Shown here piece by piece: positions 15,800-19,466 of a stretch of 64,000 bases of DNA. How positions within the stretch are numbered: position 1 is the stretch's first letter; every line of letters begins with the position of its first letter. A program made the position numbers and the translations under genes. The stretch covers positions 62,001 through 126,000 of the forward strand of contig NZ_APNK01000001.1 of NCBI RefSeq assembly GCF_000732535.1, given 5' to 3'. The notes under the pieces were generated by a model. That model was given only the letters and a program-made list of their open reading frames with translations, was not told where the DNA came from and did no database searches. The stretch comes from Salinisphaera hydrothermalis C41B8 (GTDB taxonomy: Bacteria > Pseudomonadota > Gammaproteobacteria > Nevskiales > Salinisphaeraceae).

Positions 15800-16837
15800 C
15801 TAAGTCGCCGGCTTCGACGCCTCCGACGTACGCCCGGGCAGTCGCGGCACGAGCGCGCCGTCCGGGCCGAGACCGCGGGCGGCGTAATAGTCGGCGCCAT
15901 CAGTGCCGTCGTAGCGGCGCTCGTTGAGGAAACGCCGGATCACGCCGGCCGATTCGTTAGCCCGCATCAACAGGAACAGATGCCCGCCCCCGCGGACGAT
16001 GTGCAGATAGGATTTGGGGATCAGCCAGTAGAGAATACGGCTGTTGATGAGAGGCACGATCGGGTCGTCGTCGCCGCCCATGATGAGCGTCGGGCAATGC
16101 AATCGATGCAGCCGATGGGCGCTGGTCCAGCCGAGCGACGCGATCAGCTGGTTGACGTAACCCCGCGTGCTCGGGCCGCTGGCGTAGCGCCCGCGACGCG
16201 TGATCAACTCGGGCCGCCGGCGCATCAGCCCGCCGTAGAGCCCGGCAACGGTCGCCGGCAATGTCCCCGAGCGCTCGTGGCGCCGCGCTGCCGCCAGTCG
16301 TTTGAGCGTGCTGGAGTGTGTCGCCAGGCTCGGCCAGCCGATGGAACTGGAGGCAAGTACGAGCCGATTGACTTGCGCGGGATAGTCCAAGGCGAACTGC
16401 TGGGCGAGCGAGCCGCCCCACGACAACCCGACGAGATCCAGCAATTCGTCGTAGCCCAGACGCTCCAGGAAAGTCGCGATCAGCGCCGCGTACCAACTCA
16501 GCCGATGCGGCATGCTGCGCGGCGGCGAACGTCCCGCACCGGGCATTTCCGGCACGATGATCTCGGCGTCATCGAGGGCATTGACCAACGGCAGCAACAT
16601 GTCGAGGTTGGCGCCGATGGTGTTCAGAATCAGCATCGGCCGGCCACGCCCGCGCCGAATGCCATATCGCAGGCGCACGCCGTCGACGTCGATCCAGTCG
16701 ACCTGAATGCGGGTCCGACGCCGCAGGACGCTGAGTTCCGGCGGCATCCGCCGGCCGGGCCGACGGATGGCGGTCAGCGATTGTATTTTGTTTGAGACAG
16801 AGTCCGACATCGGTCCGCGACTCGTTTCGTCGCTCAT
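15800..16837 (-). CDS. phaZ: PhaZ-like intracellular PHA depolymerase (active-site residues intact)
   Basis: A 345-residue alpha/beta hydrolase closely resembling the medium-chain-length PHA depolymerase PhaZ of Pseudomonas. It shares the patterns ILNTIGANLDMLLP, GLSWGGSLAQQFALDYP, GLGWTSAHRLHRL, GGDDDPIVPLINSRILYW and GGGHLFLL. The nucleophile is Ser139 in G-L-S-W-G, with Asp and His present in the last two motifs. PhaZ releases hydroxy acids from the storage granule. The C-terminus has about 30 extra residues. The start is uncertain: ATG 16837 lies 10 bases after the previous stop, while a GTG at 16861 would overlap it. It is the last gene of phaC-phaZ-like-phaZ. Confidence 0.88.
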   Translation of the reverse strand: MSDETSRGPMSDSVSNKIQSLTAIRRPGRRMPPELSVLRRRTRIQVDWIDVDGVRLRYGIRRGRGRPMLILNTIGANLDMLLPLVNALDDAEIIVPEMPGAGRSPPRSMPHRLSWYAALIATFLERLGYDELLDLVGLSWGGSLAQQFALDYPAQVNRLVLASSSIGWPSLATHSSTLKRLAAARRHERSGTLPATVAGLYGGLMRRRPELITRRGRYASGPSTRGYVNQLIASLGWTSAHRLHRLHCPTLIMGGDDDPIVPLINSRILYWLIPKSYLHIVRGGGHLFLLMRANESAGVIRRFLNERRYDGTDGADYYAARGLGPDGALVPRLPGRTSEASKPAT

Positions 16838-16847
16838 GATCTTGACA

Positions 16848-17687
16848 TTAGACCGCTTCACCGCCCGGCTGCAACGGGTGCGGCGTGTCCAGGAATTCCT
16901 CGATCCGGCGACTCGCCTCGTCCGGGCGCTCCAAAAGCAGCCAGTGGCCGGCGCCGCGCATGATCGACAGCCGGGAATCCGGGATCAGCAACCCGAGCAG
17001 ACGGACGTTGGGCAACGGCACGACCTGATCATCGTCGCCCGCCAGAACAAGCGTCGGCATCGTCAGCCGATGCAGCCACGGCAAACTGGAAAAACCAGCC
17101 ATGGCATAAAGCTGGGCCGCGAATGCCCGGCGGCTGGGCGCGCGATTCCGATGCAGTGCGCTGGCCACCGCCTCGCATTCGTCGGCACGCCGCCCGCCGA
17201 ACAGCTCGCGCACGTCACGCCCGTCGGCGACCACCGTACCCGGCCCGCCCGGCCAGGCCAGACGCCGCAGACTGGCCACACGCCCCGGCAGCATGAGCGG
17301 CCCGCTGGACGTGGCGACCAGTACCAGACGCCGAACGCGCGATGCATGGTCGCGGGCCAGACGCTGTGCCAAGAGGCCACCCCACCCCATGCCCAGGACG
17401 TCTACCTCGGGACAGTCGAGCACGTCGCACACACGTGACACGCGCTGTGCCAGCTGTGCCATTCGCCGCATCCGGGGCGTACCCGGCGCCTCGCCAATGC
17501 CGGGCATGTCGAAGCGGATCGTTGGCCGCGCGAGTGCGTCGCAGATCGTATCGAGCACCCCGTAACAGGCAAGAAAATCGTTGCACATCAACAAAGGCGG
17601 CCCGACGCCGGACGTACGGGCGACCACGACGGCTTCACCCTCGATATGGAAGGTTTCGACCCCGGCTGTGTCAGCGCTGGCGCACAT
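16848..17687 (-). CDS. PhaZ-like protein with nucleophile serine replaced by glycine
   Basis: A 279-residue alpha/beta-hydrolase paralogue of the PhaZ next door (same motifs: GDDDQVVPLPNVRLLGLLIP, RGAGHWLLLERP). In the nucleophile elbow it reads G-M-G-W-G-G where PhaZ has G-L-S-W-G-G, so the catalytic serine is Gly101. The Asp and His of the triad are still there. The reading frame is clean and full length, so this is probably a maintained pseudoenzyme, perhaps a granule-binding or regulatory partner of PhaZ or PhaC, not decay. ATG 17687 overlaps the phaC stop by 17 bases in another frame. Function is inference. Confidence 0.8.
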   Translation of the reverse strand: MCASADTAGVETFHIEGEAVVVARTSGVGPPLLMCNDFLACYGVLDTICDALARPTIRFDMPGIGEAPGTPRMRRMAQLAQRVSRVCDVLDCPEVDVLGMGWGGLLAQRLARDHASRVRRLVLVATSSGPLMLPGRVASLRRLAWPGGPGTVVADGRDVRELFGGRRADECEAVASALHRNRAPSRRAFAAQLYAMAGFSSLPWLHRLTMPTLVLAGDDDQVVPLPNVRLLGLLIPDSRLSIMRGAGHWLLLERPDEASRRIEEFLDTPHPLQPGGEAV

Positions 17688-19386
17688 AACGGCCCGGCGC
17701 CGCCTCGATCGGCTCGAAGTCGTCATTGCCGAAGATTTCGGGCGCGGCCACGGTCGGGCCACCCCGGGCCCGGCACCACTCGACCCAGTCCGGCCACCAC
17801 GACTGCTCGACCGCACGCGCGCCGCGACGCCAGTCGGCCGGATCGAGATCGTGGTCGTCGTTGATCCAGAACCCCCGCGCCGCGTCCGCGCGTCGGCCCC
17901 CCGGCGGACAGACCACGGCCTGAGCGTGTCCGCCGGCGCCGAGCACGAATCGCCGGCCGCCACGAAACATCTGCATGGTGCGATAACACGCCTGCCATGG
18001 CGCAATATGGTCCGCCGCCCCGGCGACCACGAATACATCCTGTTCGATCACCGACAGATCGATCATCTCGCCATCGAGGGTGAGACCGCCGGCGGCGCGC
18101 CCCCGATCGTCGCGATAGATGGCCAGCAGATCGGCATGCAGTCTCGCGGGCAGGCGCGTCGTGTCGCTGTTCCAGTACAGAATATCGGAGGCGGGCGGGG
18201 TCTGACCGAGGACGTAATTGTGCGCCACGAAGCGCCAGACCAATGCATCCGGCCGCTGCCAGGCGAAAGCGCGCGCCATGGCCGCGCCATCGAGCACACC
18301 GCTACTCGTCGAACGCGACAGCGCCCGAGCAATGGTTTCGTCGTCGCCGGTCGGCACAGCGGACACGCTGCGGGGCGATTCCAGCAGGGTCACGAACAAA
18401 GACAAACAGGCGATCCGGTCGCTCTTGCCGCCCATGGCCAGATGCGCCGCGGCGGCTGCCGCGGTCAGCCCGCCAGCACAGGCCCCGGCCAGTTTGACCG
18501 GCTGCTCTGCGCTCACGCGCCAAACGACATCGACCGCCTGTTCGACCGCCTCCACGTAATCGGACAGCCCCCAACGACGTTGCGCGGCTGTGGGGTTGCG
18601 CCAGGAGATGGCGAACACCTGTTGGCCCGATGCGAGCGCATAGCGCACCAGACTGTCCTCGCCGCTGAGATCGAACACATAGTATTTGTTGATCTGCGGA
18701 CCGACAAGGAGCACAGGCGCCGCATCGACTTGCCGGGTGTGCGGTGTGTACTGGATCAGCTCGCAGATCTCGTCGCGATAGATCACGGCTCCGGGCGTGG
18801 CCGCGATATTCACGCCCAGGGTGAATGCCGCTCTGTCGACCTGGCGTGGCAACCCCCGATTATCGCGCAGGTCGCGGAGCAGCTGGTATAGCCCGACGAG
18901 CGCCGATCGGCCCCGGGTGCTGACCAGATTGTCGTAAAACCCGGGATGGGTCAGAAACAGGTTGGCGGGCGATACAGCGGCGATCAGGTGTTCGACGGCA
19001 AACGACAGCTGTCGTCGGCGCGTGTCCGACAGTCCGGACACACTCACCAGTTCGCGCAGCGTATCCGCGAGCACGAGATACACGCTCGCGACCCGCCCGA
19101 ACACGGGGTTCGCCTGCCACGCCGGGTGCGCGAATCGCGGATCATCGAACGTCGGTCGGGGCCCGCCGCGCCCCCACAGCGCCAGCGTCAGTCGCGCGAT
19201 GAGCCGACCCTCGATACGCAAAGCGGCTGCGGGATGGCGCGCGAGCACGCCCAGCAGCTCGCCCGCGGCCCGGCCGATATCGGGCCAGCGGGCGTCCGCG
19301 GTGACGAACGCGTCCGGCGTTTCAGCGGTCATCGGCTCGCGCTCGACGCGTTCGACCGGATCCGATAACCGGGCTGGGTGATTCAC
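17671..19386 (-). CDS. phaC: class II-type polyhydroxyalkanoate synthase
   Basis: PhaC polymerises (R)-3-hydroxyacyl-CoA into storage polyester on granules. The 571-residue protein has the lipase-like box G-A-C-A-G-G with catalytic Cys303, Asp459 in GAADHIAPW and His487 in GGHAQAVV. It also has the synthase blocks VLLVGPQINKYYVFDLS, FAISWRNPTAAQRRWGLSDY and the tryptophan-rich C-terminal block. Length and context (next to phaZ) fit class II, medium-chain-length synthases. A GTG start at 19386 is preceded by AGGAGG four bases away; ATG 19332 is the alternative. No phaD, phaF or phaI is seen here, so phasins must lie elsewhere. Confidence 0.9.
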   Translation of the reverse strand: MNHPARLSDPVERVEREPMTAETPDAFVTADARWPDIGRAAGELLGVLARHPAAALRIEGRLIARLTLALWGRGGPRPTFDDPRFAHPAWQANPVFGRVASVYLVLADTLRELVSVSGLSDTRRRQLSFAVEHLIAAVSPANLFLTHPGFYDNLVSTRGRSALVGLYQLLRDLRDNRGLPRQVDRAAFTLGVNIAATPGAVIYRDEICELIQYTPHTRQVDAAPVLLVGPQINKYYVFDLSGEDSLVRYALASGQQVFAISWRNPTAAQRRWGLSDYVEAVEQAVDVVWRVSAEQPVKLAGACAGGLTAAAAAAHLAMGGKSDRIACLSLFVTLLESPRSVSAVPTGDDETIARALSRSTSSGVLDGAAMARAFAWQRPDALVWRFVAHNYVLGQTPPASDILYWNSDTTRLPARLHADLLAIYRDDRGRAAGGLTLDGEMIDLSVIEQDVFVVAGAADHIAPWQACYRTMQMFRGGRRFVLGAGGHAQAVVCPPGGRRADAARGFWINDDHDLDPADWRRGARAVEQSWWPDWVEWCRARGGPTVAAPEIFGNDDFEPIEAAPGRYVRQR

Positions 19387-19466
19387 GACGCCTCCTGTGG
19401 CAGCGGCCTCCGCCGACCAAGATTGATGGTTACAATGGCGCCACGCGTTTTTCAAGCGAGTCGTAC

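Follow-up and report, generated by a model that had tools for sequence, protein, structure and literature searches.

PHA is a storage plastic made by bacteria. Its depolymerases of the PhaZ type act by an acyl-enzyme route, which needs a nucleophile. In the enzyme from P. putida, the catalytic triad consists of Ser102, Asp221 and His248, and either deletion of the FNGIG loop or a point mutation at Asn35 abolishes activity (PMC12504323). Polymer length changed when phaZ was knocked out in P. putida, and the study left open a contribution of PhaZ to synthesis (PMC3918157). The PHA depolymerase database records Ser lipase boxes in all families but one, which relies on Cys (PMC2666664). Taking into account that all families recorded there carry Ser or Cys, the clade described here, with Gly at the nucleophile position, represents a new variant. 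Our literature searches found no paper joining the terms 'PHA depolymerase' and 'pseudoenzyme', and none on PHA in Salinisphaera.

The window analysed, a stretch of 64,000 nucleotides from Salinisphaera hydrothermalis C41B8, carries phaC, phaZ1-G (encoding Z1) and phaZ2 (encoding PhaZ2, or Z2) in that order on the minus strand (Table 1). A sequence-only reading had described Z1 as a PhaZ-like protein with a GMGWGG elbow at Gly101, preserved Asp and His motifs and an intact frame overlapping phaC, adjacent to a PhaZ with the elbow GLSWGG. All of this was borne out, coordinates included. The nucleophile elbow of Z1 reads V-L-G-M-G(101)-W-G-G, Asp220 and His248 are in place, and the frame of 279 residues runs without stops from an ATG at 17687 that lies inside phaC, whose own stop codon occupies 17671-17673. 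The PhaZ2 Ser, numbered 139 in that reading, is Ser139 when counted from the internal ATG at 16837 and Ser147 when counted from the GTG start. Z1 and PhaZ2 share 37% identity over 242 residues.

Table 1. Features of the phaC-phaZ1-phaZ2 locus in the window
Feature	Position	Strand	Remark
phaC: PHA synthase, class II-like, Cys/Asp/His intact	17671..19455	(-)	likely start ATG 19332
Overlap of 17 nt, phaC 3' end / phaZ1-G start	17671..17687	(-)	identical length in all 13 Salinisphaera; G015 has 4 nt
phaZ1-G (Z1): serine-less PhaZ-family protein, 279 aa	16848..17687	(-)	nucleophile replaced by Gly in all 14 orthologues
Z1 Asp37, codon GAT, replacing the invariant FNGIG-loop Gly (loop = 34-38 of P. 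putida PhaZ)	17577..17579	(-)	Asp, Glu or Asn in 14 Z1
Z1 Gly101, codon GGG, equivalent to the catalytic Ser102 of P. putida PhaZ	17385..17387	(-)	orthologues GGC/GGG/GGA, always Gly
Z1 Asp220 codon, triad Asp kept (equivalent to Asp221 of P. putida PhaZ; GDDDQVVP)	17028..17030	(-)	invariant
Z1 His248 codon, retained triad His (GAGHW)	16944..16946	(-)	invariant
phaZ2 (Z2): downstream PhaZ paralogue with Ser, GLSWGG	15800..16861	(-)	start uncertain: GTG 16861, ATG 16837 or ATG 16810
phaZ2 Thr81, codon ACC, in place of the invariant loop Gly	16619..16621	(-)	loop Gly in 57/57 outside homologues
phaZ2 nucleophile Ser, codon TCG	16421..16423	(-)	retained

A search of relatives (60) identified the same gene in 12 more congeners and in one other genus of the Salinisphaeraceae, represented by G015; S. 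shabanensis, S. orenii, S. halophila and S. japonica are among the species sharing the locus. The nucleophile position is Gly in all 14 independent assemblies (13 Salinisphaera species and G015), with the frame intact in each. The gene order phaC-phaZ1-phaZ2 is identical in 14/14 loci, and the wider yihY/plsC/rnt/argG neighbourhood is also kept in the Salinisphaera loci examined. Two of the records, L040 (NZ_JAGHQU010000004.1, Endozoicomonas sp. G2_2) and L048 (PBAO01000015.1, Lysobacterales bacterium SP48), display the locus of Salinisphaera with its synteny unchanged; both were placed in Salinisphaera and are probably misnamed. We scanned one genome per species, across 84,980 species, for the peptides [LM]G[IM]GWGGLL or AGDDDx[IV]VP, and every Gly form recovered came from a Salinisphaeraceae locus; the patterns are strict, and rarer Gly forms elsewhere could have escaped them. 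A class-wide search of 369 genomes gave only two more homologues outside Salinisphaera, both with Ser. In most outgroup loci phaC is followed, directly or closely, by a single Ser-type phaZ. We therefore take the locus to be an old PHA operon and Z1 to be a modified copy within it, an addition peculiar to the Salinisphaeraceae. An apparent tandem PhaZ arrangement in Geodermatophilaceae and other actinobacteria (L051, L053, L067, L069) was set aside, as the gene lying between phaC and the phaZ-like gene reads, by eye, as an acyl-CoA dehydrogenase.

Z1 and Z2 proteins each group in a clade of their own, with support of 97/93 for Z1 and 100/100 for Z2. The two clades were not joined as sisters on the tree, and a sister grouping was not rejected (p-AU 0.229), so that duplication within the family and transfer are both compatible with the data. 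As for absence of the locus, one Salinisphaera genome, G006, is without phaC and phaZ, which at first reading was taken as co-loss; as the plsC flank is missing as well, we dropped this case as uninformative. The reduced genomes G014 and G016 are without phaC, phaZ and phasin, with plsC present.

Z1 is under purifying selection, with omega values of 0.10-0.27 (NG86, nine pairs) alongside 0.05-0.20 for phaZ2 and 0.06-0.22 for phaC, estimates that are rough where dS is near 1. If Z1 were a single-strain mutation, an assembly error or a decaying pseudogene, its faster evolution would be accounted for, as its omega is about twice that of Z2 in most pairs. This explanation is refuted by the Gly found in 14/14 assemblies, the intact frames, the omega values and the fixed 17-nt overlap, and we consider it barely credible. 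The sequence-only reading had proposed a maintained non-catalytic paralogue, and had suggested asking of its homologues whether the Ser-to-Gly change is conserved and under purifying selection. Both proved to be the case, and the former pocket ranks among the best-conserved regions of Z1; the opposite outcome foreseen there, that homologues retain Ser and the change is confined to one strain, did not occur.

Concerning the other catalytic elements, the alteration in Z1 extends beyond the nucleophile. The Gly on the oxyanion side, in the FNGIG loop, is replaced in all 14 Z1 proteins (Asp in 11, Glu in 2 and Asn in 1, that of GH4); this replacement, Asp37 in the window, and the Thr at the same position in PhaZ2 add to what the sequence-only reading had noted. 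The loop Asn is retained in 10/14. Among 57 homologues from outside the Salinisphaeraceae, Ser, Asp, His and the loop Gly are present in every one, and the loop Asn in 50. We could not identify a substitute nucleophile in the Z1 elbow (G-[MI]-G-W-G-G-L-L), in which there is no conserved Cys, Ser or Thr. Several residues are conserved among Z1 proteins and not among their Ser-bearing relatives, including D155, R160, F163, R166, C171, Y194, W249, E253 and R254, situated in the lid and the His loop.

The family membership of Z1 was then examined. The best NCBIfam model for both proteins is TIGR02240 (PHA depolymerase), with 135.6 bits for Z1 and 212.7 bits for Z2, both below the equivalog cut-off of 250.6 bits; Z1 orthologues score 140-189 bits. 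Z1 shares with the PhaZ proteins of TIGR02240 their homology, the triad Asp and His and an alpha/beta-hydrolase fold with a lid, and lacks a score above the cut-off, the Ser of GxSxG and the Asn-Gly pair of the loop. Its only Pfam matches are PF00561, PF12697 and PF12146; it has neither a PF06850 match nor a Cys nucleophile. The structure predicted with AlphaFold is confident (pLDDT 88.5, pTM 0.89), and comparison with the PDB matched the model to esterases and to B. thuringiensis PhaZ, both wild type and S102A. In sequence and predicted structure, Z1 thus resembles a pseudoenzyme among alpha/beta hydrolases, with a lost nucleophile in a fold that is conserved and under selection.

As read from the sequences, Z1 has lost the nucleophile and the loop Gly and has kept the fold, Asp and His, under purifying selection and with an invariant phaC overlap. 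Its job is very probably something other than ordinary cutting; with no Ser, an acyl-enzyme would not form and the PhaZ mechanism of PHA depolymerisation would be closed to Z1. Our overall interpretation, which we hold with about even confidence, is that Z1 is a fixed serine-less member of the intracellular PhaZ family of mcl-PHA depolymerases, specialised for a non-hydrolytic role in the Salinisphaeraceae PHA operon. Within this role, Z1 is probably an accessory protein that binds PHA, the granule or PhaC. It would be produced in coupling with PhaC, and its preserved pocket and lid would serve to bind the ends of 3-hydroxyacyl chains, the surface of the nascent granule, or PhaC. Such an accessory might shield chains from the hydrolytic PhaZ2 or regulate the access of PhaZ2 to them. 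Binding seems the most economical role because the pocket and lid remain, because of the coupling to PhaC, and because loss of PhaZ affects chain length in P. putida. The former-pocket positions of Z1 have a mean entropy of 0.33 bits compared with 1.13 bits overall (reached in 0/20000 permutations), which argues that the site is still in use; the set was picked by eye and pockets are conserved in any hydrolase family, a point that weighs against the accessory reading. The coupling to phaC could likewise be simple inheritance from an ordinary phaC-phaZ operon, and the invariance of Asp and His in a Ser-less protein might point to residual or new chemistry.

The last point raised the possibility that Z1 is a Ser-independent enzyme, in which Asp220-His248 would serve as general base alongside the new acid at residue 37, and the space at Gly101 would be filled by water or substrate, for another reaction on a PHA-related acyl compound. 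All 14 Z1 proteins and the five Ser-less Z2 proteins described below keep the Asp and His, position 37 is Asp or Glu in 13 of the 14, the pocket is strongly conserved, and the newly conserved charged and aromatic residues D155, R160, R166, W249, E253 and R254 lie in the lid and His loop. On the other hand, GH4 has Asn at position 37, the oxyanion-side loop is altered, the elbow offers no conserved Cys, Ser or Thr, and retention of Asp and His may be structural. We judge such an enzyme unlikely. An accessory at the PhaC/granule interface is favoured, both over this possibility and over a regulator of PhaZ2.

The sequence-only reading had taken the neighbouring gene for a normal phaZ. This is correct as regards the Ser; the loop Gly is lost, being Thr in the window, and the PhaZ2 of five relatives has no Ser at all. 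Given Thr81, the activity of the window PhaZ2 may be impaired. In seven species PhaZ2 is intact, with N-G-S-D-H at the five positions. In a subclade of seven species that includes the window, the loop Gly is changed to Thr or Ala, and five of its members have lost the Ser as well, with Ala in its place in Q1T1-3 and GH4 and Gly in UBA1666, S. japonica and SP48 (loci L042, L039, L046, L047 and L048, each with phaC intact). The loop Asn has become Gly in three of the five, and Asp and His are invariant in all of them. On the Z2 tree, at least two changes are needed for the loss of Ser; GH4 is placed elsewhere on the PhaC tree, and given this placement the history may include recombination. The Ser-less pair G010/G013 displays an omega of 0.080, within the 0.05-0.12 of Ser-bearing Z2 pairs, a range that omits the near-identical pair G011/G012. 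PhaZ2 in this subclade would have begun, or completed, the same conversion as Z1.

These results bear on a third possibility, that Z1 regulates PhaZ2, either in a heteromer or as a decoy on granule sites, and thereby limits or activates it. The two genes are in tandem, of common ancestry and co-retained in 14/14 loci. However, Z1 is still constrained in the lineages whose PhaZ2 is Ser-less (omega 0.258 for G010/G013 and 0.226 for G009/G013), and the fixed overlap ties Z1 to phaC rather than to phaZ2. A regulator acting only on PhaZ2 hydrolysis would be pointless in the five species, as PhaZ2 there has no Ser. This weakens the proposal, which we regard as distinctly unlikely.

We also examined the remaining PHA machinery. 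The Cys, Asp and His of PhaC are intact in 14/14, and every genome that carries phaC also encodes a Phasin_2 protein. Each of the five genomes with a Ser-less PhaZ2 has one phaC and a Phasin_2 protein, and no intact PhaZ of the TIGR02240 type was found in them, matches beyond the two locus copies reaching at most about 60 bits. Replacement by a Cys-type depolymerase was ruled out, as PF06850 has no match over the cut-off in Salinisphaera; such a protein is present only in G015. NF050089 gave only generic matches below the cut-off. With PF10503 the matches were weak and partial, two in GH4 just above the cut-off of 23 bits (24.2 and 23.1) and one below it in UBA1666. Completeness is 87% for UBA1666 and 81% for SP48, and the result that no recognised PhaZ with a nucleophile was found is therefore carried by Q1T1-3 and S. 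japonica, whose records are near-complete and not MAGs. It is possible that these two harbour an unrecognised hydrolase. G015 differs in its gene content, with three phaC genes in addition to the PF06850 depolymerase. It also encodes a third PhaZ-like protein that has Ser (GHSWGG, 257 residues; L120 1522-2295, contig 17), about 2 kb from a Phasin_2 gene.

A further explanation is that the locus as a whole, together with its PhaC, now serves a polymer or oligomer that is not ordinary PHA, and that the two PhaZ-like proteins are remnants retuned to this product. In all species tested (the window, S. shabanensis, S. japonica and G015), PhaC fails to reach the NCBIfam cut-off for either class I or class II, and the five species lack Ser in both PhaZ proteins, with no other PhaZ of the TIGR02240 type or PF06850 found. 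The intact PhaC residues and the phasin accompanying every phaC speak against such a shift, which seems to us very unlikely. Returning to the accessory reading, it can be extended to a catalytically dead PhaZ that has become an accessory part of a PHA synthase system. In five species both PhaZ proteins are without a nucleophile and the synthase and phasin are kept; either an unrecognised enzyme would mobilise the PHA of these species, or their PhaZ proteins would serve only synthesis or granule control. This extension is possible, though less likely than not.

A natural, selected Gly clade separates the binding or structural roles of PhaZ from hydrolysis. Across Salinisphaera, the series of an intact PhaZ2, a PhaZ2 with the loop Gly lost, one with Ser lost and one with Asn lost too offers natural steps in which the conversion of an enzyme to a non-enzyme within an operon can be studied. 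A further question is the way in which PHA is mobilised in S. japonica and its relatives, which matters for PHA accumulation in halophiles.

Compared with known systems, the intracellular scl-PHA depolymerase PhaZa1 of R. eutropha (PF06850) is, like Z1, a PHA-related alpha/beta hydrolase without GxSxG, but it belongs to another sequence family and has a catalytic Cys (PMC2666664), whereas the Z1 elbow has neither Cys nor Ser. B. thuringiensis PhaZ S102A (PDB 8ynw) is a PhaZ deprived of its Ser and matches Z1 in fold; it is a laboratory mutant from another PhaZ family, whereas Z1 is natural and selected. The pseudoenzyme principle is not new for the alpha/beta fold, with examples from other contexts. 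Neuroligins are alpha/beta-hydrolase pseudoenzymes in which a natural change of Ser to Gly occurred and the fold was retained for binding; unlike Z1 they are eukaryotic adhesion proteins, unrelated to PHA and homologous in fold only. PhaE and PhaR, the small subunits encoded with phaC and needed by class III and IV PHA synthases, may offer a functional analogy for an accessory role, with no relation in sequence or fold. Finally, the mcl-PHA PhaZ of P. putida and P. oleovorans (TIGR02240) resembles Z1 in sequence family, position after phaC, lid-bearing alpha/beta fold and triad Asp and His, and Z1 departs from it in the change of Ser102 to Gly, the change of the loop Gly36 to Asp, Glu or Asn, scores of 135-189 bits against 250.6, and a set of newly conserved lid residues.
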